NCBI GenBank assembly: GCA_026417135.1
Contig: JAOADV010000007.1
Span: forward strand, 1-64,000
Direction of reading: 5' to 3'
Length of the DNA: 64,000 nt
From: Ignavibacteria bacterium
GTDB taxonomy: Bacteria > Bacteroidota > Ignavibacteria > Kapaibacteriales > UBA2268
The first letter of the stretch is position 1. Every line of letters begins with the position of its first letter. A program made the translations under genes and the position numbers. Under the pieces are notes generated by a model. It was not told the origin of the DNA, searched no databases, and saw nothing but the letters and a program-made list of their open reading frames with translations. Positions 35,258 to 53,207 of the stretch are shown here, in pieces.

Positions 35258-35731
35258 ATGGACGAAATACTCGTTATTGCCATTGGGAACGATATTATTG
35301 GAGATGATGGTGCAGCTTTTGTTGTTGCAGACGAATTGAAAAAGCTTCTTCCGGAAAGTGTTTGTATCGAAAAAATATATACCACCGGATTGGACATTAT
35401 TGAATTAATAGAAGGAAAACGAAAAGTACTGATTTTAGATACTATTTCAACTTCTGCTAATCCAGTCGGAACAATTTATGAACTTCATCCGGAAGATTTT
35501 CGTGTTAATCATTCAAGTTCGGTTCATTATATTGGTTTGCCAGAGGTCATAGAACTATGCAAACTTATTGGAATTCAATCCCCCGAAGAGATTAAGATTA
35601 TTGCTTTGGAAATCGAGCCTCAGTACAATGTCAATATTGGTTTAAGCCAAACAATTAAAAATAAAATTCCAGAAGTAGTTCTGCTTGCGGAAAAAGTAAT
35701 CAAAAGTTGGATAGAAATTAATAAAACTTGA
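35258..35731 (+). CDS. [NiFe]-hydrogenase maturation protease (HyaD/HycI family)
   Basis: 157 residues. Clips the C-terminal extension of the hydrogenase large subunit once nickel is in place. Family marks: N-terminal IAIGNDIIGDDGAAF with the metal-ligand Asp/Glu, LILDTIS, and HYIGLPEVI with the third ligand His. Its likely substrate is the MvhA-like protein in the convergent operon, whose precursor has a tail after DPCHGCATH. The gene ends 8 nt short of the transporter that closes that operon, on the opposite strand. Confidence 0.9.
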   Translation: MDEILVIAIGNDIIGDDGAAFVVADELKKLLPESVCIEKIYTTGLDIIELIEGKRKVLILDTISTSANPVGTIYELHPEDFRVNHSSSVHYIGLPEVIELCKLIGIQSPEEIKIIALEIEPQYNVNIGLSQTIKNKIPEVVLLAEKVIKSWIEINKT

Positions 35732-35739
35732 ATTTCTAC

Positions 35740-36429
35740 TTATAAGCCTAGAAATTGAACTCCAATCCCGCAAACCAGTATCGTTAAACCAGCAAGTGAG
35801 TGAACGTATTTTTCTATTCTATTAAATTGAATTAAGTTTATTCCTTTGACTCCAAGAAAAGTAGTAAGCATCATTGTTCCTATTGTTGTGATAGCAAAAA
35901 ATAGAGATGCAAGCCCAGCAACAACAAAATTATGCTCGATTCCGGGATACATTATAATAGGAATTAAAGGTTCGCAAGGTCCAAAAGCAAATATTATGAA
36001 AAGTATCCAAGGAGTTATTTGTACTTTCGAGGTGTTGCCAACAGTGTTGTGGTCTATATGCACATCTCCATCGGTGTGAATATGGAAGTGCTTGTGTTTG
36101 CCTTCTTTGAAAATAACTTTTAAACCCCAAATCGAGTAAATAAAACCAAAGGCAATTAGTAACCAACCAGAAATATTGCCTTTCGTTTCCTCAATTGCAA
36201 CAAGAGAAAGAGCAGATTTCCCTAAAATGATTCCAATGATACCAAGCAAAATAGAAGAAAGTACGTGGCCCACCCCGCAAATGAAGACAATTAAAAGTGT
36301 CTGCTTGATTGACCAATTCTTCGCTTTCGATAAGGCAATGAATGGAATATAATGGTCTGGACCAAGGATAGTATGAAGAAAACCAAGAAACCCAGCTGTA
36401 GAAATCAATAAAATTGCTTCGTTTTGCAT
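35740..36429 (-). CDS. Probable nickel transporter (NicO/UreH-like membrane protein)
   Basis: 229 residues with about six membrane helices. The first helix carries H-x5-DH (HTILGPDHYIPFI), resembling the H-x4-DH nickel/cobalt motif, and a His-rich loop (KHKHFHIHTDGDVHIDH) follows helix three. FAFGPCEPLIPI in a later helix is typical of the SafE/UreH-like group. Position as last gene of the hydrogenase-maturation operon, 18 nt after hypE, strongly suggests Ni(II) supply for the hydrogenase. Direct metal specificity is inferred. Confidence 0.72.
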   Translation of the reverse strand: MQNEAILLISTAGFLGFLHTILGPDHYIPFIALSKAKNWSIKQTLLIVFICGVGHVLSSILLGIIGIILGKSALSLVAIEETKGNISGWLLIAFGFIYSIWGLKVIFKEGKHKHFHIHTDGDVHIDHNTVGNTSKVQITPWILFIIFAFGPCEPLIPIIMYPGIEHNFVVAGLASLFFAITTIGTMMLTTFLGVKGINLIQFNRIEKYVHSLAGLTILVCGIGVQFLGL

Positions 36430-36447
36430 TTTTTTATTATTATTTGT

Positions 36448-37527
36448 TCAACAAATTCTTGGGAGTTGTTCACCAGATAACATATCTATTATTCTTGTAG
36501 TTCCAATTATGGTTTTTAAAGTAACTGTTTGGTTGGTTTCGGGCATAACTTTCCCAATAATTGCGGAATCTTTCCCGTATGGATGGTTTTTCATTGCTTG
36601 TAATACTTTTTCTGCGTCCTCCGGGGCAACAATTACTATCAATTTGCCTTCATTTGCAACATACAGTGGGTCGAAACCCAGAATTTCGCAAGCACCTTTG
36701 ACTTCTTCCGATATTGGAATTGCACATTCTTCTATCATTATATCGAAACCAGAAGAAATAGCAATTTCGTTCAAAACGCTTGCTAAACCACCCCGTGTTG
36801 GGTCTCTCATCATTTTAACTTTATCTGATGTTTCGAGAATAGCTTCGACAAGCCCGTTTAGTGGAGCAGAATCACTTAGAATCTCGGTTTCGAACTCAAA
36901 GCCTTGTCTTTTGGAAATAATTGCAATTCCGTGTTCTGCAATCCTTCCATTAATGATGATTATGTCATTTGGTTTGCAGTTTTTTGGCGAAATATTAAGA
37001 TTCGGTCGAACTATACCAATACCAGTTGTATTAATGAAAATCTTGTCTCCTTTTCCTCGTTCGACAACTTTTGTGTCGCCAGTAACAATTTTGACATTTG
37101 CGAGTTCTGCTGAATTTTTCATCGATTGAACGATTTCCCACAATTCTTCGATGGGCAAGCCTTCTTCGATAATGAAGCTAACAGAGATGTATAAAGGTTT
37201 TGCACCGCAAACCGATAAGTCGTTGATGGTCCCAAATACTGCGAGAGAGCCTATGTTTCCACCGGGGAAAAAAATTGGGTCGACAACAAAAGAGTCGGTT
37301 GTAAAAGCAATCTTTAATCCGTCGATTTCCAAAATTGCACCATCGTGAAGTGTATTTAAAATAGGGTTTTCGAACTGCCTTAGGAAGAGTTTTTCAATTA
37401 GGTCGTGCATTAAACTTCCACCACCGCCGTGGGCTAAAAGTATTTTGTCATAATTAGTGATAGGGAGTGGACAGCTTAAATTAATTTTGTTCGAGGTATT
37501 TTTTTCTTGCTCCATCGAAAATATCAT
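36448..37527 (-). CDS. hypE: Hydrogenase maturation protein HypE
   Basis: 359 residues, AIR-synthase fold. With HypF it makes the cyanide ligands of the NiFe-site iron: HypF carbamoylates the C-terminal Cys, which HypE dehydrates to thiocyanate with ATP. The chain ends PRIC, the required C-terminal motif. Also AHGGGGSLMHDLIEKLF at the N-terminus, FTTDSFVVDPIFFPGGNIG, and MMRDPTRGGLASVLNE. A second ATG at 37515 is possible. 13 nt after hypD. Confidence 0.95.
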   Translation of the reverse strand: MIFSMEQEKNTSNKINLSCPLPITNYDKILLAHGGGGSLMHDLIEKLFLRQFENPILNTLHDGAILEIDGLKIAFTTDSFVVDPIFFPGGNIGSLAVFGTINDLSVCGAKPLYISVSFIIEEGLPIEELWEIVQSMKNSAELANVKIVTGDTKVVERGKGDKIFINTTGIGIVRPNLNISPKNCKPNDIIIINGRIAEHGIAIISKRQGFEFETEILSDSAPLNGLVEAILETSDKVKMMRDPTRGGLASVLNEIAISSGFDIMIEECAIPISEEVKGACEILGFDPLYVANEGKLIVIVAPEDAEKVLQAMKNHPYGKDSAIIGKVMPETNQTVTLKTIIGTTRIIDMLSGEQLPRIC

Positions 37528-37540
37528 TGTTTATAGATTT

Positions 37541-38647
37541 TTATGTGAAAGACCTAGCTTGTTTGAACTTATATCTAAAGTATGCCGCACAAGCACCTTC
37601 GGACGAAACCATTGGTGCTCCGAGAGGATGCTCTGGTTTACATTCATTTCCAAAAGCTACGCATTCGTTTGGTTTCCTAAAGCCTTGTAAAATTTCGCCA
37701 GCTATACAAAGACCTTCTTTTTTTCCTTTAGGTAGCGAACGAAACTCGAATATTTTTTCTGCATCGTAGTCGGAGTATTTGTCGTTAAGATGTAAGCCAC
37801 TTTTTGGAATAGTTCCTATCCCACGCCATTCTCTGTCCACTCTTTGGAAAACCTCGAAGATAAGTTTCTTAGCATTTTGGTTACCTTCCTTTCGTATTGC
37901 TCTTGAATACTCGTTTTGAACTGTATTTATGTTTTTCGAAATCATTTCTACAACCATAGATATTCCAGTAATAATATCCAAAGGTTCGAATCCAGTTGCT
38001 ACGATTGGAACTTGGTATTTTTCCGCAATTTGTTCATATTCTTCCAACCCCATTACCGTACAAACGTGTCCAGCAGCAAGAATTCCTCTGATTTTAGATT
38101 GGTTATTCGCAAGTAAAGCTTCGATTGCGGGAGGAACAAGCATATTTGCACAAAGCAAATAGTAGTTTTTTATTCCGTTGTTTTTGGCTAAAATTACAGA
38201 CCGAGCGATAGCTGGAACTGTCGTTTCGAAGCCAATAGCGAAAAAAACGATTTTTTTTTCGGGATTTTCCTTTGCAAGGTTTACAGCTTCGAGTGGCGAA
38301 TAGACGATTTTTACATTGCCTCCATTTGCTTTGGCAAGTAGAAGGTCCCCTTCCGACCCGGGTACACGGAGCATATCTCCAAAAGAAGTTAAAATGACTT
38401 CGGGGTTAAGTGCTAATTCTATTGCTTTGTCGATTAACTCGACAGGTGTAACACAAACTGGGCATCCGGGTCCGTGAATTAAACTTACTTTATCCGGAAG
38501 TAAAGATTCAAGGTCGTATTTTAAAATAGTATGGGTTTGTCCGCCGCAAATTTCCATTATTGAAAGCGGCGACGTAACCATTTGGTCAATTTTTTTTGTA
38601 AGTGCAAATATGTACTTATAATTCCTATATTCGTCGAGGAATTTCAT
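37541..38647 (-). CDS. hypD: Hydrogenase maturation protein HypD
   Basis: 368 residues. A [4Fe-4S] scaffold that, with HypC, holds the Fe(CN)2CO unit. The conserved segments are MEICGGQTH, IHGPGCPVCVTP, AGHVCTVMG and the C-terminal cluster cysteines in LCIAGEILQGFRKPNECVAFGNECKPEHPLG. Lies 3 nt from hypC and 13 nt before hypE. Confidence 0.96.
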   Translation of the reverse strand: MKFLDEYRNYKYIFALTKKIDQMVTSPLSIMEICGGQTHTILKYDLESLLPDKVSLIHGPGCPVCVTPVELIDKAIELALNPEVILTSFGDMLRVPGSEGDLLLAKANGGNVKIVYSPLEAVNLAKENPEKKIVFFAIGFETTVPAIARSVILAKNNGIKNYYLLCANMLVPPAIEALLANNQSKIRGILAAGHVCTVMGLEEYEQIAEKYQVPIVATGFEPLDIITGISMVVEMISKNINTVQNEYSRAIRKEGNQNAKKLIFEVFQRVDREWRGIGTIPKSGLHLNDKYSDYDAEKIFEFRSLPKGKKEGLCIAGEILQGFRKPNECVAFGNECKPEHPLGAPMVSSEGACAAYFRYKFKQARSFT

Positions 38648-38650
38648 ATT

Positions 38651-38929
38651 TCAAGACTTAAGATTGATATTATTGGACTTTTTGGAGATGAATTCTTCTT
38701 CGGCAATGAAAATTTCTTCGAGAGTTTCCAGGAGTTTGTTTGCCTCTTCTTCGTCGATTGTATTCAAGGCAAATCCCACGTGAACAAGTACATAGTCTCC
38801 AGTTTTTGCTTCTGGAACTAAATCCAAGCATACTTCTTTTACGATTCCTCCGAAACTTACTTTACCCATTTTTAAGTTTTCGTCTTTATATTCAATTTCT
38901 AAGATTTTCCCAGGAACTGCTAAACACAT
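38651..38929 (-). CDS. hypC: Hydrogenase maturation chaperone HypC
   Basis: 92 residues starting MCLAVPGKILEIE. After loss of Met the N-terminal Cys binds the iron centre. The G-x-V-x-F-G-G segment (MGKVSFGGIVKEVCLD) and GDYVLVHVGFALNTID are typical. It also binds the hydrogenase large-subunit precursor. Confidence 0.95.
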   Translation of the reverse strand: MCLAVPGKILEIEYKDENLKMGKVSFGGIVKEVCLDLVPEAKTGDYVLVHVGFALNTIDEEEANKLLETLEEIFIAEEEFISKKSNNINLKS

Positions 38930-38949
38930 TTTTATAACTCCAAATTGAT

Positions 38950-41256
38950 TTAAGTTTCAAATTTATCATTAAAAAACCAATTTGCAGAAGCAATTTGGCC
39001 AAAAGAGATACCTCCGTCGTTTGGTGGTACTCGTTGGTGCCAAGCTACCTTGAATTGATTCTCTTCGAGCCTATTGATTGTTCTTTCCAGAAGGTAGGCA
39101 TTTTGAAAGCAGCCACCGCTCAAAACTATAGTTGTTTCGTTTCCGACGAGTTTCGCAAGTTTTAAAATAATTTCGGAAAGTGTATTGTGGAATTTTGCAG
39201 AAATCCTTCCAACTTCTGTATCACTCTTAATGTCTTCAAGTATACCTTCGATTATTGGTTGCCAATCGATTATTATCGGCTGTGCTTTTTCAATTTCGAA
39301 AGGATAATTTTCATTAATATGTGAATTAGCGGTGAATTCCAACATCATTGCTGCTTGGCCTTCGAAGTTTATTCTATGGCATAAATTAACCAAAGAAGCG
39401 ACAGCGTCGAAAATTCTACCTACACTTGATGTTCTAGGCGTGTTTAAGTTATTTTCGAGCATTTGTGTAAAAATACGAAGTTCATTGTGGCTAAAGTTTA
39501 GTTCGAGAAATGGAATTTTTACATTGGACAACTCTTTTCGATAGATTTCCCACAACAAGCTTAGAGCCGAGCGTCGTGGCTCCTTTATTGCTTGCTCGCC
39601 GCCAGGTAGGGAAAATTTTCGGAAACTTGCAAAATGCTCGAAATGGAAATTTTTGACTAAGAAAAATTCTCCACCCCAGATTGTGCCATCAAGTCCAAAT
39701 CCGGTTCCATCCCAAACGACTGCAAGAGCATTGTTTTTAACTTGATTTTCGGCTATACAAGAAGCAGCGTGAGCTATATGATGTTGTATATAGATAACTT
39801 TTTTGTTTTCATTATTGAGCGAATTTACAAATTGTGTTGAAAAATAATCAGGATGTAAATCGCAGATAAAAATGGAAGAATCTGACTTATATATTTCTTG
39901 AAATTCTTTCACCGCCTTTTTGAAAGAATTTATTGCTTTTTCGTTCGACAAATCACCTATATGCTGACTGATGAAAACGTTTTTTCCTTTTTGCAATGCT
40001 ATTGTGTTTTTCAATTGTCCCCCAACAGCCAAAAGAGTTTTATCGTCGAATCTGATATTTTCTTCAAACTCTATTGGGAAGGGAGCATATCCTCTTGCTC
40101 TACGAAGCATCATAACTTTTCCTTTGATTACTCTTGCAACTGAATCGTCAACATACCTTGCAATCGGTCGGTTATGTACAAGGAAAAAGTCTGCAATATT
40201 TTGCAATCTGTCGAGTGCTTCTAATTCGTCGATACACATAGGCTCTTCGCTGATATTTCCGCTTGTTGCAACAATTGGAATGTTTAGCTCATTCATAATT
40301 ATGTGGTGTAAGGGAGAATAGGGCAACATTATCCCAAGGTAAGGATTTTCGGGGGCTACATATGTCGAAGGTTGTTTTGTATTTGGTGTAGATTTTCTTT
40401 TGAGTAAGACAATTGGTGCTTCGGGAGAAAGAAGTAATCTTTCTTCGGCGAGCTCGAGGTTGCAAACTTGGTAAACAGAATCAAGATTTGGGAACATTAG
40501 GGCAAATGGCTTGTCGATTCGATGTTTTCTTTCTCTTAACTTTTTTACAGCCTCGTCGTTATACGAATCGACCAAAAGCTGAAATCCGCCTATCCCTTTC
40601 AATGCAATAATTTTCCCTTTTTTAATAAGTTCTACAGTTTCTTCGATTGCATCGTGCTTTTTGGAAAGCACATTGCCTTCTCTATCCCAGAGTTCTACGT
40701 GAGGACCACATTCTGGACAAGCTATTGGTTGAGCGTGATATCGTCTATCGTTTGGATTGTTGTATTCTTCCCTACATTTTGAACACATCTGGAATTTTTT
40801 CATTGTCGTATTGCTTCGGTCGTATGGAAGCGACTCGATTATTGAATATCTCGGACCACAATTGGTACAATTAATGAACGGATACATATACCTTCTATCT
40901 TTCGGGTCGAACATTTCCTTCAAACAATCGGGACAAGTCGAGATATCAGGCAAAATAAAAGCAACTGTTTCTGCTTCGTAACGACTATGTAATATTTCAA
41001 AAGTCTCGTAGCCTTTTGGTTCGAGAAAAGAATACTCAAAGCTTGAAATAAAAGCGAGTTTTGGCTTTTCCGATTTAATTCTATCAATAAATATTTCCAA
41101 AATTTTTCGTTCGCCTTCGCACTCTATTATTACCCCAATTGTCGAATTAAGGACATAACCATTTAAATTTAATTCGTTTGCCAAGCGGTAAACAAATGGG
41201 CGGAAACCAACACCTTGGACTGCACCTTTGATTTCAAGCTTGATTCTTTGCCGCAT
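38950..41256 (-). CDS. hypF: Carbamoyltransferase HypF
   Basis: 768 residues, full length. Order: acylphosphatase domain (AVQGVGFRPFVYRLA, 1-90), two zinc-finger motifs (CPDCLKEMFD, CTNCGPRYS, CSKCREEY, CPECGP, about 108-190), YrdC-like domain (about 200-380, SGNISEEP), and a Kae1/carbamoyltransferase-like domain (GGQLKNTIAL, VWDGTGFGLDGTIWGGEFF, LSGGCFQNAYLL). It uses carbamoyl phosphate and ATP to load HypE. Its first 23 nt overlap the end of hypB. Confidence 0.96.
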   Translation of the reverse strand: MRQRIKLEIKGAVQGVGFRPFVYRLANELNLNGYVLNSTIGVIIECEGERKILEIFIDRIKSEKPKLAFISSFEYSFLEPKGYETFEILHSRYEAETVAFILPDISTCPDCLKEMFDPKDRRYMYPFINCTNCGPRYSIIESLPYDRSNTTMKKFQMCSKCREEYNNPNDRRYHAQPIACPECGPHVELWDREGNVLSKKHDAIEETVELIKKGKIIALKGIGGFQLLVDSYNDEAVKKLRERKHRIDKPFALMFPNLDSVYQVCNLELAEERLLLSPEAPIVLLKRKSTPNTKQPSTYVAPENPYLGIMLPYSPLHHIIMNELNIPIVATSGNISEEPMCIDELEALDRLQNIADFFLVHNRPIARYVDDSVARVIKGKVMMLRRARGYAPFPIEFEENIRFDDKTLLAVGGQLKNTIALQKGKNVFISQHIGDLSNEKAINSFKKAVKEFQEIYKSDSSIFICDLHPDYFSTQFVNSLNNENKKVIYIQHHIAHAASCIAENQVKNNALAVVWDGTGFGLDGTIWGGEFFLVKNFHFEHFASFRKFSLPGGEQAIKEPRRSALSLLWEIYRKELSNVKIPFLELNFSHNELRIFTQMLENNLNTPRTSSVGRIFDAVASLVNLCHRINFEGQAAMMLEFTANSHINENYPFEIEKAQPIIIDWQPIIEGILEDIKSDTEVGRISAKFHNTLSEIILKLAKLVGNETTIVLSGGCFQNAYLLERTINRLEENQFKVAWHQRVPPNDGGISFGQIASANWFFNDKFET

Positions 41257-41905
41257 TTAGTTTTGCATCGTTTAGCAAGAAGTTAAACCAGTTTTCCAGA
41301 CCTTCGCCAGTTCGACACGATACTTCGAAGATTTTTAAATTGCCATTGATTGCCAAAGCGTTTTCTTTTAACTTGGCGATGGAAAATTCAAGAAAAGGAA
41401 GTAAATCGATTTTATTTATGATAAGCACATTAGAATTGCGAAACATAACCGGATACTTCAATGGTTTGTCTTCTCCTTCGGTTGTGCTTATCAATGTTAT
41501 TTTCATTTTCTCCCCAAGCTGGAATTCTGCTGGGCATACCAAATTCCCAACATTTTCGATAAATAATATCTCAATTTGTTCATTCTCGATTTGAGTGAAA
41601 GCGTTGCGAACGAGTGTAGCATCCAAATGGCAAGCTCCGTTTGTTACAATTTGAACAACTGGGACATTCAAAGCATCGATTCTTTGTGCGTCCAAGCTTG
41701 TTTGCAAATCGCCAGTGATAACTGCGAAATTAATTTTAGACTTTAATTTTTCTATGGTTCTTTCGATTAGACTTGTTTTTCCCGACCCTGGCGAGCTTAC
41801 CAGGTTGTACGCTGTAATTCCTTTTTCTGCGAAAAGCTTCTTATTCGATAAGGCTATTTCGTCGTTCTTTTGTAGAATTTTCCTTTCTATGGTAATTACA
41901 CTCAT
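41234..41905 (-). CDS. hypB: Hydrogenase nickel-insertion GTPase HypB
   Basis: 223 residues. G-domain motifs: Walker A SSPGSGKTSLIE, ITGDLQTSLDAQRI, the G-domain metal-binding segment NGACHLDA, FIENVGNLVCPAEFQLGE and INKIDLLP. The protein starts with MSVITIERKILQKN, so it lacks both the N-terminal CxxCGC high-affinity nickel motif and the His-rich stretch of many HypB proteins; nickel storage is not expected, only GTP-driven delivery with HypA. Confidence 0.95.
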   Translation of the reverse strand: MSVITIERKILQKNDEIALSNKKLFAEKGITAYNLVSSPGSGKTSLIERTIEKLKSKINFAVITGDLQTSLDAQRIDALNVPVVQIVTNGACHLDATLVRNAFTQIENEQIEILFIENVGNLVCPAEFQLGEKMKITLISTTEGEDKPLKYPVMFRNSNVLIINKIDLLPFLEFSIAKLKENALAINGNLKIFEVSCRTGEGLENWFNFLLNDAKLNAAKNQA

Positions 41906-41930
41906 ATAAATCTAAATTAAATAAATAACT

Positions 41931-42275
41931 TCATTCAAGAGTAACAATTTCAACAACTTTTGAATCTAACCCAGACAAAATTTCGACATTACTACTTGAA
42001 CAGTTGGGACAAACAAAAAATGGGTAATCGGGTTGAGAAATTTCAGCACAATCAATACATTTGAATTTTAGCGGTTTTAAATCGAAATCGAGCTTTGCAC
42101 CTTCGAACTGCGTTCCTTGTACGAGTATTTCGAAACACATTTCTAAGGATTCTGGAACAATGTTGGAGAATTCCCCAACTTCCAACTTGATAGATTTGAC
42201 AATTGTTCCGTCAGAATTTGGAACAAAAGATTTAGCTATATTAATTATTTCTTGAGCAAAAACAAGCTCGTGCAT
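41931..42275 (-). CDS. hypA: Hydrogenase nickel metallochaperone HypA
   Basis: 114 residues. The N-terminus MHELVFAQEI supplies the nickel-binding His2, and the zinc site is CIDC...CPNC (residues about 73-93). Partner of HypB. First of the hyp genes, 45 nt after the large-subunit gene. Confidence 0.95.
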   Translation of the reverse strand: MHELVFAQEIINIAKSFVPNSDGTIVKSIKLEVGEFSNIVPESLEMCFEILVQGTQFEGAKLDFDLKPLKFKCIDCAEISQPDYPFFVCPNCSSSNVEILSGLDSKVVEIVTLE

Positions 42276-42320: not shown

Positions 42321-43799
42321 TTATGAATTATTTACTAATTTTTTTATTACCTTTCCTTCCGAATTGTAAATAGTTGCTACAAGCGGAATTGTTCCTGGCA
42401 AAGAGTGAGTTGCACAACCGTGGCAAGGGTCGTACGCACGAAAAGCCATTTCAATCATATTGAGTAATCCATCGTTGACGATACCATTTTTTATCAAAGC
42501 TTTGGCACTTTTTTCGACACTCATTGCGATACGCGCAGAATTATTTTGTGTTGCAACTATGAGATTTGCTTTTTGGATTAAACCAAGCTCGTCGGTTTCA
42601 TAGTGATGTATCAGAGTTCCTCTAGGGGCTTCGATAACGCCTATACCGACAGAAGGTTCCTTCAGTGGCTTTGGTATATTTCTAATGTCGGTGCTGGTTA
42701 TCTCGGGGTCTTCGAGTAATTCATTTATTCTTTCTGCTGCATATAAAATTTCGACTACTCTTGCCCAATGGTTTGCAAGCGTAAAGTGGACTGGTTTTCC
42801 ACCAAGTGTTTCATACATTTCGTTCATTGCCTTTTGAGCAAGCGGGGTCGCCATTCCATCAGATGCATTCAATCTTGCTAATGGGGCTACTGAATAAATG
42901 CTCGTTCCATCGCCATCGACAAATCCTTTCCATCCAAGCGGACGTATATAACAGAATTTATCGTAACTCCATGGTTCAACGTGTTCGGCAATATACTCCA
43001 AATAATTGTGTATGTGGAATTTTGCAAATTCATTCCCATTGGGGTCGACAACTCTTAGCTTCCCATCATAAAAATTAACACAGTTATTTTCGTCGACTAA
43101 ACCCATATAGTTTGTTTTGTGGTAATATGCATCGGAGGTGATTAATTTAACATATTCTTGATTGGACAGAACAATATTTTTGAAAACTTCAAGTGTGAAT
43201 TGTGCGAATTCTAAAGCTTCTTTTGCTACTTCTTTGAATCTTGGTAGTTCTTCTTTTGCAATTCCTTTGGAAACGCCACCGGGTAAACCAAGAACTGGAT
43301 GTATAACCTTCCCTCCCAAGTAAGTTATTAAATCCCTTAATTTACGACGCATAGATATAACTTTTTTTCCAACTTCGAGCCCGACTTTGCCAATAACTCC
43401 GACAACATTTCTTTGTTCTTTTGGTGCGTCGGGTCCAACTATAAAATCTGGGCCACCTAAGACATAGACGTGGAGAGCGTGGTCTTCGACCATAAAAATG
43501 TTATATACGAGTTCTCGGATTTTCTTTGCCGTGGGTGTCGGTTCGACTTTGTAGAGGTCGTCGAGCGCCTTAGTCGAAACCATATGGTGTGCGGTTGGGC
43601 ATACCCCACAGATTCTGCTCGTTATCTGGGGCATATCTTCGGCTGGTCGACCTTTGCAAAAAACTTCGAAACCGCGAAGTTCGGGTACCATAAAATAAGC
43701 TCTTTCAACATTGCCTTGGTCGTCGAGGAAAATTTCTATTTTCCCGTGACCTTCGAGCCTTGTAATAGGGTCTATTGTAATTTTTTTCTCTGTCCTCAT
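42321..43799 (-). CDS. mvhA: [NiFe] hydrogenase large subunit, group 3c-like (MvhA)
   Basis: About 492 residues. H2-activating subunit. The four nickel-binding cysteines lie in RICGVCPTAHH (L1, about residue 64) and DPCHGCATH (L2, about residue 460). The segment after the L2 His (SLPGTIPLVATIYNSEG) is the tail removed by the maturation protease. The pairing with mvhG, mvhD and hdrA places it in group 3c (methyl-viologen-reducing, bifurcating); the sequence alone cannot separate 3c from close relatives. Start at ATG 43799: GGAG lies 8 nt before it, while the upstream ATG (43811) has no site. Confidence 0.92.
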   Translation of the reverse strand: MRTEKKITIDPITRLEGHGKIEIFLDDQGNVERAYFMVPELRGFEVFCKGRPAEDMPQITSRICGVCPTAHHMVSTKALDDLYKVEPTPTAKKIRELVYNIFMVEDHALHVYVLGGPDFIVGPDAPKEQRNVVGVIGKVGLEVGKKVISMRRKLRDLITYLGGKVIHPVLGLPGGVSKGIAKEELPRFKEVAKEALEFAQFTLEVFKNIVLSNQEYVKLITSDAYYHKTNYMGLVDENNCVNFYDGKLRVVDPNGNEFAKFHIHNYLEYIAEHVEPWSYDKFCYIRPLGWKGFVDGDGTSIYSVAPLARLNASDGMATPLAQKAMNEMYETLGGKPVHFTLANHWARVVEILYAAERINELLEDPEITSTDIRNIPKPLKEPSVGIGVIEAPRGTLIHHYETDELGLIQKANLIVATQNNSARIAMSVEKSAKALIKNGIVNDGLLNMIEMAFRAYDPCHGCATHSLPGTIPLVATIYNSEGKVIKKLVNNS

Positions 43800-43827
43800 T
43801 GTAAACTCCATTTATTTTTTAGTAATG

Positions 43828-44796
43828 CTACAAATTTAATCTTCTGTGTAATGTCGATTTTGCAAGTCCATAGCGATAGAAAGTTCCAACAGGGTCGGGG
43901 ATTCCATTTAAGATTTCATCGATTTCTGGTTCGGTTTTTGCATCAACGGAAGAGGCTATCGAAGATAAAAATTTAGCCCCGTGGTCTCGAACTCGTGATG
44001 TTGGTCCAAAGCAGCCAGAGCAAGGCATATTTCCACCGATACAAAGAGCCTCGCATCCACTTCGAGTTGCTGGTCCCATACATATCAAGCCTTGGGCTAA
44101 AAAGCATAGCTCGGGGTCTATTTCTACTAAATGCGGTCGCTTAAACTCTTTGAATTGTAAATCAGTTGGTTTCGTATCTTTACGAGGACACTCGTCGCAA
44201 AGTGCTACATCTGGCGAAAGAACAGTTCCTTTTGGTGGCAAATTACCGGAAAGTAGTGTAACGAGTGCATTTTTTAATATCTTAGGTGTTGGTGGGCATC
44301 CGGGTATGTAATAATCAACGTCCACGACTTGGTCCAATGCGCGTACAGTTTCCCAAAGTACTGGAAGCTCGACTTCGCGACCATTTTCTTTTAGAATTGG
44401 CTGGGGGCGTGTTTCATCTGGATTAGAAACCGTTGGTGCTTCGCTATAAACATAGTTTTGAATAAGTTCCTTCCGAAATTCATTAGCCAGACTTGGTATG
44501 CCACCCATATGGGAACAAGCTCCATAAGCTATCATAATTTTGCTTTTCTTACGCAGAAGTTGTGCCATTTCGTATTGTTCTGAACTACGAATGGCACCAT
44601 TAATCATAGATACAAGAATTTCTCCGTCGGCAAACTTTTCAACATCGCTCCTTTTGAAATCCATAGCTACGGGCCAAAAAATAATATCGACATTTTCGAC
44701 GACGAAAAGAATATCTTCGGCTAAATCGACGACAGATTCCTCGCATCCACCACAAGATGCGCACCAGTACATTGCAACTTTTGGTTTCTCTGCCAT
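43828..44796 (-). CDS. mvhG: [NiFe] hydrogenase small subunit (MvhG-like)
   Basis: 322 residues. Electron-transfer subunit with three cluster regions: proximal CASCGGCEES (residues about 12-20) with ACSHMGG and PGCPPTP; further clusters from CDECPR, CFLAQGLICMGPATRSGCEALC and MPCSGCFGP. No Tat signal and no membrane anchor, so cytoplasmic, as for group 3. AGGAGG precedes its ATG. It lies between mvhD (3-nt gap) and mvhA. Confidence 0.93.
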   Translation of the reverse strand: MAEKPKVAMYWCASCGGCEESVVDLAEDILFVVENVDIIFWPVAMDFKRSDVEKFADGEILVSMINGAIRSSEQYEMAQLLRKKSKIMIAYGACSHMGGIPSLANEFRKELIQNYVYSEAPTVSNPDETRPQPILKENGREVELPVLWETVRALDQVVDVDYYIPGCPPTPKILKNALVTLLSGNLPPKGTVLSPDVALCDECPRKDTKPTDLQFKEFKRPHLVEIDPELCFLAQGLICMGPATRSGCEALCIGGNMPCSGCFGPTSRVRDHGAKFLSSIASSVDAKTEPEIDEILNGIPDPVGTFYRYGLAKSTLHRRLNL

Positions 44797-44799
44797 ATT

Positions 44800-45303
44800 T
44801 TATTCCTCCTTAATTTCCGAAGTTACTGGATGATGTTCAATTTCTTTTTTCAATTCTTCATATTTTTGTGGAAGAGCAAGTGGTCCGAGAGCCTTTACTT
44901 GGTTGACCATCTCGTTAACTACTACCCGGACTCTATCGGCTTCCGAAGCTGAAATCCATTCCAAGCGTAGTCTTTCGGGCTCGATTCCAAAAGAGTTGAT
45001 TACTCTTTGAAGAAGACGGAACCGGCGTAAACATTTATAGTTACCTTCTTGGTAATGGCAATCTCCGGGGTGGCAACCACCAATTAAGACGCCATCGGCG
45101 CCTTTTGCGAATGAATCAAGTATGAATTGCGGGTCGACGCGGCCCGAGCACATTACTCGGATAATTCGAATATTTGGGGCATACTTAATGCGCGAGACAC
45201 CAGCTGAATCCGCTGCTGTATAAGTACACCAATTGCAAAAGAATGCAACAATTTTTGGTTGCCATTCTTTTTGACCATTACCGTTTGATTTGTTCTCCAT
45301 CAT
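44800..45303 (-). CDS. mvhD: MvhD-type [2Fe-2S] subunit linking hydrogenase to HdrA
   Basis: 167 residues. Cysteines in FFCNWCTYTAADSAG, VMCSGRVDPQFI and GGCHPGDCHYQEGNY match the MvhD family, whose [2Fe-2S] centre carries electrons from MvhAG to the FAD of HdrA. About 25 extra residues extend the C-terminus beyond the usual ~140. Its ATG overlaps the hdrA stop (ATGA). Confidence 0.94.
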   Translation of the reverse strand: MMENKSNGNGQKEWQPKIVAFFCNWCTYTAADSAGVSRIKYAPNIRIIRVMCSGRVDPQFILDSFAKGADGVLIGGCHPGDCHYQEGNYKCLRRFRLLQRVINSFGIEPERLRLEWISASEADRVRVVVNEMVNQVKALGPLALPQKYEELKKEIEHHPVTSEIKEE

Positions 45304-47314: not shown

Positions 47315-48511
47315 TCAGTCCTCCATTGATTCCGATAATAATTCAACAATATCCTTGACAACCATTTTGTTTTCGTAGCCAGCAACTTTCAAAGCATCTT
47401 CGAATCGTGGAATTTCGTATGGACAGCCGACTGCAAGAATGTCTGCACCAGTTGCTATTGCTTCTCGAATTCTAATGTCGGAGAGTCGTTCCATATTTTG
47501 GGATTTAAAGTAGGTATCGAGCCACATTCCACCACCTCCGCCACCACAGCAAATTGAATTGATTCTATGGTGGAACATTTCGACTAATTTTATTCCGGGA
47601 ATTGCATTAAGCAAAGCTCTTGGCTCGTCGAAAAATCCATTGTGTCTTCCCAAACAACAAGAGTCGTGATAAGTAACAGAATAATTTAGCGGGCGAGTAA
47701 GCATTGATTTTAATTTGTCGTAGTATGGCATTAGGAAGGGAATAATGTGGTAGACTGGTTTTTTAAAACCATACATACGATAGCGGTAATTGAAGGCATC
47801 GAGCGCGTGTGGGTCCGAAGTTACGATTTTATTGAATGTATATTTTCCCAAAATGGAAATATTGTAGTCGATGAGTGCTTCGGCAAGTCCAGTTTCCCAT
47901 GCTAAAAGTCCACATTCCCCGGCGCTTCTTTCTTCGTTCCCTAAAATTGCGAAGTCGATTTCCAAGCGATTAAATATTTTTGCTATGGCTCGGCAAGTAT
48001 CTTGCCCTCGAGGATAATATGCTGGATAACTTTCGACAAACCAAAGAACATCGACTGGTCCGGGGTTCTGACTTAAAATGCGAACCGGATACTTGGAAGT
48101 AGCGACCCAGTTGGCTCTTTTCCTACCAGATTCGCCCATTGGATTGCCATAACGATAACTATTTTCGAGTGCTTTTTGTAATTCTGCAGGCAATGTAGGA
48201 AGCTTTAGTATGGTTTGCTCTTTAATTAGCTGCAACAATACCTCTGTAAGATGGATACCTCGTGGACATTTTGCCATACAAGCATAGCAATTGACACATT
48301 TCAACATACTATCTGTATCGGAGACTTTATCTGCCAAACCGTGGAGTAGCATTTCGATAATTCTTCGAGGAGGATATTTCATATATTCTCCGTGGGGACA
48401 GGTTCCAACACAAGTTCCGCATTGAATGCAAGTTAGTATTAATTTCCCCTCGCTTGTTTCGTAAATAGTTTCAAGTGTAACACCTTTAATTTCTTCAAGG
48501 TCTGCAATCAT
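47315..48511 (-). CDS. HdrD-like (fused HdrC/HdrB) iron-sulfur protein
   Basis: 398 residues, soluble. Two [4Fe-4S] motifs, CIQCGTCVGTCPHG and CVNCYACMAKCPRG (residues about 28-85), form the HdrC part; the rest is HdrB-like. The second CCG module is present (HDSCCLGRHNG, SICCGGGGGGMW), but the first has decayed to VESYPAYY and SAGECG, and the last CxxC reads CPYE. So at most one of the two non-cubane clusters of true HdrB is likely. It should accept electrons from HdrA. Its C-terminal two-thirds is clearly paralogous to the next gene upstream. Confidence 0.85.
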   Translation of the reverse strand: MIADLEEIKGVTLETIYETSEGKLILTCIQCGTCVGTCPHGEYMKYPPRRIIEMLLHGLADKVSDTDSMLKCVNCYACMAKCPRGIHLTEVLLQLIKEQTILKLPTLPAELQKALENSYRYGNPMGESGRKRANWVATSKYPVRILSQNPGPVDVLWFVESYPAYYPRGQDTCRAIAKIFNRLEIDFAILGNEERSAGECGLLAWETGLAEALIDYNISILGKYTFNKIVTSDPHALDAFNYRYRMYGFKKPVYHIIPFLMPYYDKLKSMLTRPLNYSVTYHDSCCLGRHNGFFDEPRALLNAIPGIKLVEMFHHRINSICCGGGGGGMWLDTYFKSQNMERLSDIRIREAIATGADILAVGCPYEIPRFEDALKVAGYENKMVVKDIVELLSESMED

Positions 48512-48537
48512 AGTTTATCTCCTTTCTATAAATAAAT

Positions 48538-50568
48538 TTACTGTTCAATGGAATCCCAAACTAATTCTGCAATGTCTTTTACCGATAATTTTGCTTCGTA
48601 ACCAGTTGTTTTAACAGCATCTTGGAACATTGCTATATCTTTTGGACAAGCGACAACAAATGTACTAATGTTGTTTAGTGAAACAGCTTCGCGAATTCTA
48701 TTTTCGGCTGGTCTCTCTTTAACTGGGGTTTTGTCTTCCATCCAAATTCGACCACCGCCAGCACCGCAACAATAACTTTTTCTTCTATTACGGGGCATTT
48801 CTTTCAATTTTACACCTATTGCTTTAAGGATGTTCCTTGGCGGGTCGTATATTCCGTTATATCTTCCCAGATAGCAAGGGTCGTGGTAGGTTGCTTCGAT
48901 GTTTAATTTTTTGTTAATAGTTAACTTCTTTTCTTTGATGAGTTTCTCGATTAGCTCAGTGTAATGCAAAACCTCGATTTTTTCATTTGCTCCATTTCCG
49001 TTTAGCCAATACTCGTTTTTTAATGTATTATATGTGTGTGGGTCGGTTGTAACGATTTTTCTAAATTTAGCTTTTCCAAAAGACAACTGATTTTTTTCTT
49101 TTAAGAATTCGAACAAACCTTCTTCGCCAATTCGTCGCACATCGTTTCCGGAATTTTTCTCACCTTCGTATAATATACCAAAGTCCAAACCAGCTCTTTG
49201 GAAAATCATTGCAGTTTTTTGTGTAATGCTTTCCATTCTTGCATCATAAGCTGCGTAGTCCCCAGTGAACCAAAGGTATTCTACTTCCTCTTTGCGAGCA
49301 TCTTTAATCTTAAATTCAAGGCTCGAAGCCCATTTAGCTCTATTTCGTTCGGATTGACCAAAAGAGTTGCCATAGCGTTGAAGTTTTTGTAAAACATCTT
49401 GGACAGTTTGGTCCATTATTCCTTGATTAATGAGGAAGCGTCGCATATCGACAATCAACTTTGGATGCTCGATAAAAACTGGGCACATTTCTTCGCAAGC
49501 TCTACAAGTTGTGCAAGCCCAAAGTTCTGCGTCGGATATAATTTCGCCGTGTACCTTGCCTTCGCCGTTCGATGGTGAACCGTTTGATATTTTCTTCGGA
49601 TTGAAACTTATCAATACCTTTTCAAGCTTCAAGACAAGATTTTTTGGCGAAAGAGGTGTTCCACTATTATATGCTGGGCAAGCTTCTTGGCAACGGCCAC
49701 ACCAAATACAAGAATCAAGTTGTAAAAGCTGGCGCCAAGTAAATTCTGTGATTTTTTCAACCCCAGATTCATTTGCTGGGGAAAGGCTACCTATTTTCGA
49801 GGTATCTTTGAAAATCATATTGACGGAAGCAGAGAAGATATGAAACGCTTTTGTAAATGGTATTGAAGCGATGAACAAAAAAGATAGTAGCATATGTGTT
49901 GTCCAAAACCCCACGTGTAAATCTTGAAGGGTTGAGAGGGGCATAGAAGCAAAAAGTTTGGATAATTCGTTGCCAATAGGTGCCCAATGTTTCCAATAAG
50001 GATTTTGAACTGAAAGCCGAAGCCCTTCGACTACGAAACCAGTTGAAGCGATTAAGAAAAGAATTCCAAGCAAATAGAAGGAATCCCAACTAAAAGTTGG
50101 TTTAATTATAGTTTTAAGTTTTTCGGGCCTAAAAATATATCTTCTAATAAGCGCGATGATAATACCGACAATTAGGAGTATGCCGAAAATATCGAGAAAC
50201 AATTCGTAATATAGATAGAAATCCCCTTTAAGAAATTGGAAGCCAAAGAAAAGATGGGTAACATCCCAATCGACGGTTGCAATTATAGTTCCAATCAACA
50301 AGATAAACATTCCATAAAAAATTGTCAAGTGGAAAATCCCGGGGATGAATTCCGATATGATACGTTTCTGTATAATTGCTCCGTTGAACAAGGATTTAAT
50401 TCGTTGCCAAAGCGAAAGCAGAATTTTTTCGGGTCGACCGATACGCCATTTCTTTGTATGGCGAATAAAACCAACGGTGAATATGATAATAGAAAGAAAT
50501 CCCAATGCATATTGTAATATTTCCAGCCAATGAGGGATATTCCAAAATGTTGGCCTTACAGGTTCCAT
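48538..50568 (-). CDS. Membrane-bound ETF:menaquinone oxidoreductase-like (HdrDE-fusion) protein
   Basis: 676 residues. About five membrane helices with several His residues (NarI/HdrE-like cytochrome b domain, residues 15-250) are followed by a ferredoxin domain (CIWCGRCQEACPAY, CTTCRACEEMCPVF, about 290-375) and a CCG module (HDPCYLGRYNG, SYCCGAGGGRIW). The first CCG half lacks its cysteines (FTGDYAAYD, NSGNDVRR). Proteins of this build next to etfBA are thought to pass electrons between ETF and menaquinone. 3 nt after etfA and 26 nt before the HdrD-like gene. Confidence 0.85.
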   Translation of the reverse strand: MEPVRPTFWNIPHWLEILQYALGFLSIIIFTVGFIRHTKKWRIGRPEKILLSLWQRIKSLFNGAIIQKRIISEFIPGIFHLTIFYGMFILLIGTIIATVDWDVTHLFFGFQFLKGDFYLYYELFLDIFGILLIVGIIIALIRRYIFRPEKLKTIIKPTFSWDSFYLLGILFLIASTGFVVEGLRLSVQNPYWKHWAPIGNELSKLFASMPLSTLQDLHVGFWTTHMLLSFLFIASIPFTKAFHIFSASVNMIFKDTSKIGSLSPANESGVEKITEFTWRQLLQLDSCIWCGRCQEACPAYNSGTPLSPKNLVLKLEKVLISFNPKKISNGSPSNGEGKVHGEIISDAELWACTTCRACEEMCPVFIEHPKLIVDMRRFLINQGIMDQTVQDVLQKLQRYGNSFGQSERNRAKWASSLEFKIKDARKEEVEYLWFTGDYAAYDARMESITQKTAMIFQRAGLDFGILYEGEKNSGNDVRRIGEEGLFEFLKEKNQLSFGKAKFRKIVTTDPHTYNTLKNEYWLNGNGANEKIEVLHYTELIEKLIKEKKLTINKKLNIEATYHDPCYLGRYNGIYDPPRNILKAIGVKLKEMPRNRRKSYCCGAGGGRIWMEDKTPVKERPAENRIREAVSLNNISTFVVACPKDIAMFQDAVKTTGYEAKLSVKDIAELVWDSIEQ

Positions 50569-50571
50569 TGG

Positions 50572-51543
50572 TTATCCCTTTCTTTGTTTCAATTTTTCAG
50601 TAAGAATTGGAACAATTTCGAACAAGTCGCCAACTACTCCATAATGTGCAATATTAAATATAGGAGCTTTCGGGTCTGTATTAATTGCAAGTATTGTTTC
50701 AGAGTTTTTCATTCCTTCTTGATGTTCTGGTGCTCCACTAATGCCAAGAGCAAGATATAGTTTGGGTTTTACAATCATTCCAGATTTCCCTACTTGCCTT
50801 GTCAAGGGTAGCCACCCTTGGTCGACAACTGGACGGGAAGCGGAAACTGCACCACCAATTGCTTCGGCAAGCTCTTCGGCAATTTCGATATTATCTTTAT
50901 TTTGAATTCCTCTTCCGACCGAAACAAGTATATTTTCTTTCGTTATGTCGATATCTCCAAGTTCTGGTTCAATGTATTTTTTGAAAGATGGTTCGGGGAC
51001 AAAATCGGGAACTTCAAGCTCTTCGACTGGGGCGGTTCTGTCCGACTTTCCAGCGTCTAATGGGAAAGAACCGGGATATATTCCAACAATACCTTTGTTA
51101 TCGATAAGTTTAACTTCCGACAAAATCTTTCCGCCGTAGAGTTGGCTTGTTAGGAAAAGGTCCCCATTTTCGAATCTAAAAGTCTTGCAGAAGTTAATAA
51201 AAGGTAGGTCTAATCGCCTTGCAAGTATTGGTCCAACTCCGGCAGTGATATTCGTACAAGCAAGTAACAGTATCGAAGCTTGCTTTTGTTTGTAAACGTT
51301 CTCGACCAACTTTGCTGTTAGTTGTGGCGGAGTTATCTCTAATTTTTCGTCATCAAGCAATAGTACGGAGTCTGCCAATCCCAGGTTTGGTGTAAGTTTA
51401 CTTACGTCCTTTCCTATTACTAATGCAAGCAAAGGAACGTTTAGATGTTGGGCAATTTTCTTTCCGACACCTAACATTTCGTAGGTAATATCTACTATAT
51501 TACCTCGAAGATGCTCAACTAATACAATTACAGAATTGTTCAT
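50572..51543 (-). CDS. etfA: Electron transfer flavoprotein alpha subunit
   Basis: 323 residues. The C-terminal FAD domain is typical: VSVGRGIQNKDNIEIAEELAEAIG, ASRPVVDQGWLP, RQVGKSG, LALGISGAPEHQEGM, AINTDPKAPIFNIAHYGVVGDLFEI. The usual G-A-I-Q-H is G-A-P-E-H here. It binds the electron-carrying FAD and pairs with EtfB. Whether this ETF bifurcates cannot be told by eye; the context (HdrA, membrane oxidoreductase) makes it possible. Confidence 0.93.
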   Translation of the reverse strand: MNNSVIVLVEHLRGNIVDITYEMLGVGKKIAQHLNVPLLALVIGKDVSKLTPNLGLADSVLLLDDEKLEITPPQLTAKLVENVYKQKQASILLLACTNITAGVGPILARRLDLPFINFCKTFRFENGDLFLTSQLYGGKILSEVKLIDNKGIVGIYPGSFPLDAGKSDRTAPVEELEVPDFVPEPSFKKYIEPELGDIDITKENILVSVGRGIQNKDNIEIAEELAEAIGGAVSASRPVVDQGWLPLTRQVGKSGMIVKPKLYLALGISGAPEHQEGMKNSETILAINTDPKAPIFNIAHYGVVGDLFEIVPILTEKLKQRKG

Positions 51544-52394: not shown

Positions 52395-53207
52395 TTAGAC
52401 AAACTTTATGTCTTTAATACCCGGTTCAGTTCGAAGAACGTTTTGAATAAGTGCAATTGCTTCCTTCCTTTCTTTTTCTTTTTCCAAGCCCAAAATCGAA
52501 ATTTGACCAGTTTCGGCATCGCCTTCGACATCGACTTCGAAACCTCGAGTTGTTGGTGCAAGGAAAAGCAAAAGTTTTGCTTTCGACGAAAGCAAAAGAT
52601 TATTTAATTGTTTAATGTTTTCCTCGGTAGAGTTAAAATATGGCTGATTGAGAATTTGTTCGACAATTGTAGCAAAATACTCTGGGTCGATTTTATCCAG
52701 ATTTATGACTAAATCATAATGTTTGGGTTCTTCGATATTTACGCCATAAAGGAAATCGCCCCAAAGTCTTCTTCGTTCGTCAATTAGTCTTATATAGTCG
52801 AGAGCTTGCTCGTATGTTAAGTGTGGATTTCTATCTTGCCAAGCTTTGGCTCGATTGTGTAAAGATTTAATTACTCTTATTCTTAGTACAAATGGGATAT
52901 CGTTTAGGAGGAAATGAGCAAGATGCCCAAGATAAATACAACTACCTTCTTGTAGAATAAGTTCGAGCAAGGCGACTTGGAAACTCAAAAGGTAGTGCTT
53001 TCTTTTGTAATATTGACGTTCCCAAGGGCTTGGAGCGCGGTCGAGAAAAGTTATATCAGTAAATCCAGTTTCACTGATTAAGTATTTTTCCCCTTCCTCG
53101 ATAACTTTTTCTCGAGTTATGATTGGAATTTGTAGTCTTTGCGAAAGTGCATTAGCGAGTTGTTCTGCACCTATTAAAGTTCCACGAGAAATAGTAACAA
53201 TTTGCAT
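52395..53207 (-). CDS. Cytidylate-kinase-like protein with C-terminal domain, head of the ETF/Hdr/Mvh operon
   Basis: 270 residues. The first ~195 follow the cytidylate_kin2 pattern (VTISRGTLIGAEQLANALSQRL, FLDRAPSPWERQYYKRKHYL, IYLGHLAHFLL, RLWGDFLYGVNIEEPKHYDLVINLDKI). The P-loop GSGG of true kinases is GTLIGA, so nucleotide binding is doubtful. The last ~55 residues (LFLAPTTRGFEVDVEGDAETGQ...) look like a small BON-like or ACT-sized alpha/beta domain. Why it leads an energy operon is unknown; a sensor or regulatory role is a guess. 37 nt before etfB. Confidence 0.72.
   Translation of the reverse strand: MQIVTISRGTLIGAEQLANALSQRLQIPIITREKVIEEGEKYLISETGFTDITFLDRAPSPWERQYYKRKHYLLSFQVALLELILQEGSCIYLGHLAHFLLNDIPFVLRIRVIKSLHNRAKAWQDRNPHLTYEQALDYIRLIDERRRLWGDFLYGVNIEEPKHYDLVINLDKIDPEYFATIVEQILNQPYFNSTEENIKQLNNLLLSSKAKLLLFLAPTTRGFEVDVEGDAETGQISILGLEKEKERKEAIALIQNVLRTEPGIKDIKFV

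Follow-up and report, generated by a model that had tools for sequence, protein, structure and literature searches.

The question raised by this locus is what two tandem paralogues of the HdrD type, one bound to the membrane and one soluble, may be doing in an operon that also encodes an electron-transferring flavoprotein (ETF; EtfB and EtfA), HdrA and a [NiFe] hydrogenase (MvhDGA). The pair lies in a 64,000-nucleotide stretch of an Ignavibacteria bacterium, which we call the window (positions 1 to 64,000 of contig JAOADV010000007.1, assembly GCA_026417135.1), from a genome of 2.24 Mb that is 98% complete. We propose that the soluble protein, a fusion of HdrC- and HdrB-like parts that we call B3 for its resemblance to sHdrB3, and the membrane protein are the donor- and acceptor-side docking partners of one and the same ETF, and that they would form a non-catalytic relay, probably a bifurcating one, from H2 to menaquinone; we put the probability of this reading at roughly 0.6.

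Cluster ligands of the two paralogues

The C-terminal ~335 residues of the two proteins are 37% identical (204 bits, E 1.7e-60), and the original prediction, made from the sequence of the window, was right to describe a shared C-terminal region; all of the motifs that it quoted are present. The N-terminus of B3 matches HdrC (92 bits) and its C-terminus matches EtfD, while the membrane protein consists of a NarI-like cytochrome b domain, two cubane sites and a CCG region. Its heme ligands H80 and H243 are invariant and align with H78 and H241 of EtfD, and both cubane sites are kept (C287/290/293/297 and C352/355/358/362). AlphaFold2 models of B3 (predicted local distance difference test score, pLDDT, 90.9) and of the membrane protein (pLDDT 88.9) both find EtfD 9ojn as their best PDB match, with template-modelling (TM) scores of 0.81 and 0.86, respectively, and HdrB chains rank below EtfD in both match lists.

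The ligands were read against Mycobacterium smegmatis EtfD (PDB 9ojn), using the published ligand list (PMC13083937). In that protein cluster D1 is a linear [3Fe-4S] cluster held by C503, C538, C581 and C584, and D2 is a non-cubane [4Fe-4S] cluster held by C637, C672, C673, C709, C712 and H583; His583 completes D2 and renders it non-catalytic, where HdrB instead has the bridging residues Cys81 and Cys234 (PMC13083937). Aligned to EtfD, the four D1 positions read D, N, D, T in the membrane protein and S, S, D, A in B3, with no Cys in either, which bears out the predicted loss of the first CCG cysteines; cluster 1 is thus predicted to be absent from both paralogues. The D2 site is largely kept. 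The membrane protein has C565, C600, C601, C641 and His511 (five of the six EtfD ligands), with Asp644 in place of C712, and B3 has C285, C321, C322, C363 and His235, with Glu366 at the same position. We take HdrB Cys81 and Cys234 to be the counterparts of EtfD C584 and C712, the last Cys of each CxxC, in agreement with the text of the EtfD study. Both bridging positions are then replaced in both paralogues (T/A and D/E), and the two-CCG pattern of HdrB and HdrD is found in neither.

The last CxxC is indeed one Cys short, reading CPKD in the membrane protein and CPYE in B3. The companion claim of one intact CCG module needs amending: the second CCG holds four of its five cysteines, and the site is better described as a conserved variant. 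An alignment to look for replacement ligands restores nothing at cluster 1; cluster 2 may be partly restored by the invariant Asp/Glu and His. Most likely the acid completes this cluster together with the four Cys and the His, and so closes its coordination, the invariance and position of the residue being what suggests carboxylate ligation.

To judge how constant the acid is, 84,980 species genomes were surveyed and 80 loci kept, and relatives found by whole-genome search were added. At the C712 position the 44 membrane members all have Asp, and the 43 soluble ones that can be read all have Glu (a further soluble protein, L093, is frame-broken and stands outside this count), without any mixture and over some ten phyla. 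Neither the acid nor the His nor any of the four Cys varies among the 32 soluble and the 26 membrane members that were aligned, and the sole other residue met at the acid position in the subfamily is a rare Cys (L122). Such invariance over dozens of genomes rules out a pseudogene or sequencing error. The cysteines of cluster 1 behave differently within the soluble family, as two or three of them are retained in L042 and L047, and this variation suggests that they are dispensable.

The relatives serve as controls. Ordinary EtfD, including a second copy in the window's own genome (L037), retains all ligands, and C712 is also retained in soluble HdrD, which mostly stands beside HdrA and without Etf genes. 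Genuine FadF (beside beta-oxidation genes) and genuine DgcB (beside dgcA and glycine-betaine genes) have lost cluster 1, as already noted for both (PMC13083937), yet keep C712; D1 is therefore often missing and is no defining feature of the EtfD/EMR family, and the acid is a separate trait. The possibility that CPKD is simply the FadF/DgcB pattern is likewise ruled out, the real proteins having the fifth Cys.

A portable ETF module and its inputs

EtfAB genes stand beside B3 in 38 of its 44 loci; for the soluble HdrD that keeps C712 the figure is 4 of 28. The B3 loci without them are mostly contig ends. Soluble B3, EtfAB and a membrane quinone reductase of the EtfD type make up a portable module. 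Its inputs differ: HdrA-MvhDGA accompanies it in eight loci (the window among them), and sHdr C1-B1-A-hyp with lipoate-binding proteins, the type II sHdr arrangement, in 23, while the remaining loci have HdrA but no hydrogenase large subunit, or lie on cut contigs. No sHdrC1, B1 or A gene was found in the window, which thus does not encode a type II sHdr system. In the hydrogenase version one set of eight genes recurs, arranged in three different ways, in Bacteroidota/Ignavibacteriota, Verrucomicrobiota and Acidobacteriota, and the fact that these genes stay together through such rearrangements argues for association by function and not by inherited position alone. The original prediction had the soluble protein linking HdrA to the membrane protein; the outline stands, but the link most likely passes through EtfAB, which share the operon here and accompany B3 so regularly elsewhere. 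The EtfB-EtfA genes that immediately precede the pair had been left out of that prediction.

In addition, acid-type membrane proteins adjoin Etf genes where there is no B3 at all (L097, L103, L105, L119 and L125); in Agrobacterium (L125, 3434-6317) the neighbours include a GMC-family oxidoreductase, and in Mesorhizobium (L105, 8308-11233) the Asp-type protein and EtfAB are found with catabolic genes. Two loci from Bacteroidota/Ignavibacteria carry, after B3, a truncated HdrA of 286 aa that corresponds to the N-terminal part only (L044, 5698-6558; L045, 2374-3234), and the second of these also has NuoE/NuoF-like proteins nearby, as well as an HdrA whose N-terminus is 2Fe-2S-like; they are possibly a third type of input. 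In the Chloroflexota (L051, 14980-21146; L054, 7638-13770; L084) the module is followed by apparent sensor-kinase and response-regulator genes and then by a second HdrC-HdrB-HdrA set.

With the ligand columns left out of the tree, the Glu-type soluble proteins group in a single clade (100/100) that includes the sHdrB3 proteins of sHdr clusters, which places B3 in the sHdrB3 family. Nested within it is a further clade (100/100) of the hydrogenase-linked members plus L043 and L045; its spread over Bacteroidota/Ignavibacteriota, Verrucomicrobiota and Acidobacteriota suggests that the operon was transferred as a whole. A single origin of the acid was considered and rejected: the first trees joined Asp- and Glu-type proteins (82/70, again without ligand columns), but one clade was rejected by the approximately unbiased (AU) test (p 0.0009) after Cys-type relatives from haloarchaea and Paracoccus were added. 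The acid has thus arisen repeatedly, as Glu in the soluble line and Asp in the membrane line, or it has reverted; by either route an acid now occupies the equivalent ligand position in each member of the pair.

The ETF itself bears a mark of the module. Every readable EtfA of the B3 loci has SGAPEH as its flavin adenine dinucleotide (FAD)-binding motif, where ordinary EtfA has SGA(I/V/F)QH; the motif is found in 0 of 13 Cys-type loci, and the second EtfA of the window genome is of the ordinary kind (SGAIQH). Among 297 genomes of the phylum, this EtfA motif and CPKD co-occur in exactly the four that carry the module, the other pattern matches being unrelated open reading frames. We regard SGAPEH as a shared signature of the module, and not as proven coevolution.

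Proposed electron path and competing explanations

HdrA aligns over its full length with the HdrA of Methanothermobacter and Methanothermococcus and keeps the cluster cysteines, including those of the inserted ferredoxin domain. Its K421 and E370 correspond to K409 and E356 of 5odc_A, the residues proposed to mark a bifurcating HdrA (PMC12054007). The second motif of the inserted ferredoxin domain (C301-C317) has a longer loop than in methanogens, CIQFKSGKCKQTCVEVC, and similar forms are met again in the other HdrAs of the module. MvhA has the active-site motifs CGVC and CHGC and is the sole PF00374 gene, and hence the one [NiFe] hydrogenase, of the genome; with MvhG and MvhD encoded beside HdrA, the set is of the HdrA-Mvh type (group 3c [NiFe]). 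The genome also has a member of the heme-copper oxidase family, and a menaquinone-pathway match (PF02621) that is weak.

The sequences themselves show the parts of the system, the lost ligands, the constancy of the acid and the His, the conservation of the module and the signatures of HdrA and heme; from these comparisons we infer the electron path and its direction, the docking of ETF on both proteins, bifurcation and the carboxylate ligation. H2 would be oxidised at MvhA and, by homology, the electrons would pass through MvhG and MvhD to the flavin of HdrA, which probably bifurcates. One branch would lead to ferredoxin, as the nature of HdrA suggests; the other would enter B3 at its HdrC-like cubanes, to judge from the homology of its N-terminus, and go on to the modified non-cubane cluster. 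B3 would then reduce the FAD of EtfA, as is suggested by the conservation of the operon and by the fact that B3 amounts to an ETF-docking domain in soluble form. Once reduced, ETF would bind the matching surface of the membrane protein and, by homology with EtfD, its electrons would travel by way of that protein's modified cluster, its two cubanes and heme b to menaquinone. In both proteins cluster 2, closed by four Cys, the His and most likely the Asp or Glu, would act as a non-catalytic relay. The claim that the pair relays electrons rather than cleaves a disulfide is supported by the replaced bridging-Cys positions and by the nearest relatives, which are ETF:menaquinone oxidoreductases.

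The textbook potentials of H2 (-414 mV), menaquinone (-74 mV) and ferredoxin (about -500 mV) are such that the coupling of H2 to menaquinone could pay for the reduction of ferredoxin. The fuller scheme, a bifurcating hydrogenase in which ETF and menaquinone replace the heterodisulfide as the driver of ferredoxin reduction through paired proteins with His+Asp (membrane) and His+Glu (soluble) non-cubane clusters, is one that we hold tentatively, as a possibility with somewhat worse than even odds.

Several observations weigh against the proposed relay. Sequence does not fix the direction of electron flow; the acid might sit unbound beside the cluster, and the AlphaFold2 models contain no metals; an ordinary cubane could be held by the four remaining Cys; and the locus from Bryobacteraceae (L043) is a real exception in having B3 without Etf genes nearby. 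In Paraburkholderia and Shinella the cluster Asp is paired with the ordinary Gln of EtfA, so that the link between the two changes is not a strict one, and with no more than two independent contrasts in the tree, coevolution of the EtfA Glu with the cluster Asp is not demonstrable.

Among the alternatives, a relay without bifurcation, in effect a plain H2:menaquinone oxidoreductase working through HdrA and ETF, fares best, although we consider it somewhat unlikely: with a heme-copper oxidase family member present H2 could simply feed respiration, and no ferredoxin-using gene was seen in the operon, but plain transfer has no obvious need for the inserted ferredoxin-domain cysteines and the K409/E356 pair that HdrA retains. 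It is unlikely, too, that the second site is an ordinary cubane [4Fe-4S] cluster on which the acid merely tunes the potential or takes up a proton. Exactly four Cys are left at the site and they never vary, but its two neighbouring Cys and its unvarying His match the non-cubane cluster of EtfD, and within the subfamily the acid gives way to nothing but the rare Cys.

Less probable again is a direct transfer from B3 to the membrane protein, as in the original prediction, with the Etf genes serving another dehydrogenase. The adjacency of the two genes and the CCG region common to both would suit such a transfer, but EtfAB accompany B3 in the majority of loci and in each of the three gene arrangements, the membrane family is that of the ETF:menaquinone oxidoreductases (PMC13083937), its acid-type members adjoin Etf genes even in the five loci without B3, and the FAD motif of EtfA is specific to the module. 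Finally, a catalytic B3 acting on a sulfur substrate (a disulfide or persulfide) through its single remaining cluster, in the manner of HdrB or the sHdr B subunits, seems improbable, for although B3 clades with the sHdrB3 of type II sulfur-oxidation clusters and the iron content reported for HdrB2 fits one Fe4S4 cluster in a protein still competent in heterodisulfide reduction (PMC5296606), both HdrB bridging-Cys positions are replaced, the window lacks sHdrC1, B1 and A genes, and there is no variation here in the His by which EtfD closes its catalytic-iron site.

The operon, its known relatives and its significance

The operon lies on the minus strand in the order EtfB, EtfA, membrane protein, soluble protein, HdrA, MvhD, MvhG, MvhA and then hydrogenase maturation genes.

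Table 1. Features of the ETF-HdrA-Mvh operon, in window coordinates.
Feature	Coordinates	Strand	Basis or remark
EtfB, 259 aa	51578..52357	-	Pfam ETF PF01012; first in the conserved 8-gene set
EtfA, 323 aa, FAD motif SGAPEHQEGM	50572..51543	-	PF00766 + PF01012
EtfA Glu273, where canonical SGAxQH has Gln	50725..50727	-	motif comparison
Membrane EtfD/EMR-type protein, 676 aa	48538..50568	-	Nitrate_red_gam, Fer4 and CCG domains
Asp644 (CPKD) of the membrane protein, EtfD Cys712 position	48637..48639	-	Asp in 44/44 members
His511 (DPHT) of the membrane protein, = EtfD His583	49036..49038	-	invariant in 26-member alignment
B3, soluble HdrC-HdrB fusion, sHdrB3-like, 398 aa	47315..48511	-	HdrC-like N-terminus, EtfD-like C-terminus
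Glu366 (CPYE) of B3, EtfD Cys712 position	47414..47416	-	Glu in 43/43 readable members
His235 (DPHA) of B3, = EtfD His583	47807..47809	-	invariant in 32-member alignment
HdrA, 670 aa	45300..47312	-	HdrA2 model, 848 bits
MvhD	44800..45303	-	FlpD PF02662
MvhG, [NiFe] hydrogenase small subunit	43828..44796	-	VhuG model
MvhA, [NiFe] hydrogenase large subunit	42321..43811	-	VhuA model
HypA/B/F/C/D/E maturation genes	36448..42275	-	assigned by sequence appearance of the open reading frames

The hydrogenase island appears to extend further, with look-alikes of HypC, HypD, HypE, a maturation peptidase and a nickel/HupE-like membrane protein at 35258-38929, judged from the starts of the open reading frames alone. 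Directly upstream of EtfB lies a cytidylate-kinase-like gene (Cytidylate_kin2, 52395-53207), which has a counterpart in a same-family relative (L034, 5120-5947) and is absent from all other loci searched.

Each part of the system has known relatives. With EtfD (9ojn, PMC13083937), FadF and DgcB the membrane protein shares the NarI-like heme b part, two cubanes, a C-terminal CCG cluster with the counterpart of His583 and an ETF partner, and with FadF and DgcB also the lack of cluster 1, but those proteins keep Cys712 where it has Asp. Type II sHdr is defined by the fused C2B2 gene, shdrB3, together with etfAB (PMC11582611); B3 resembles sHdrB3 in its HdrC-HdrB fusion, its place beside etfAB, its clade and its CP(Y/F)E motif, and differs in accompanying HdrA-MvhDGA rather than the sHdrC1, B1 and A genes. 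Methanogen HdrABC-MvhADG (5odc, 8rvu) has comparable HdrA (743 bits over the whole length), MvhD, MvhG and MvhA and an HdrC-like cubane domain, whereas the HdrB part in the window is without cluster 1 and has its bridging-Cys positions replaced, and EtfAB with a quinone reductase stand in for the heterodisulfide. Desulfobacterium autotrophicum has soluble HdrD and membrane HdrF types, with hdrF3 beside etfBA (PMC2702500), but the consulted part of that report describes neither a paired ETF module with hydrogenase nor an acid at a ligand position. Our literature searches, whose coverage ended short of subscription papers, found no H2-linked ETF-HdrA-Mvh-EMR operon and no carboxylate-ligated non-cubane cluster. 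The acid at a cluster-ligand position and the H2-linked module are what appears new here; the system is otherwise a variant of EtfD, sHdrB3 and HdrA-Mvh.

For the family, the position of EtfD Cys712 separates the proteins of the module, with Asp or Glu, from EtfD, FadF, DgcB and ordinary HdrD, with Cys. The findings suggest that a shared ETF module, with donor and acceptor proteins of its own, joins both HdrA-Mvh (H2) and type II sHdr (sulfur) to the respiratory chain. If bifurcation is borne out, H2-dependent ferredoxin reduction would be driven from the high-potential side by the quinone pool.

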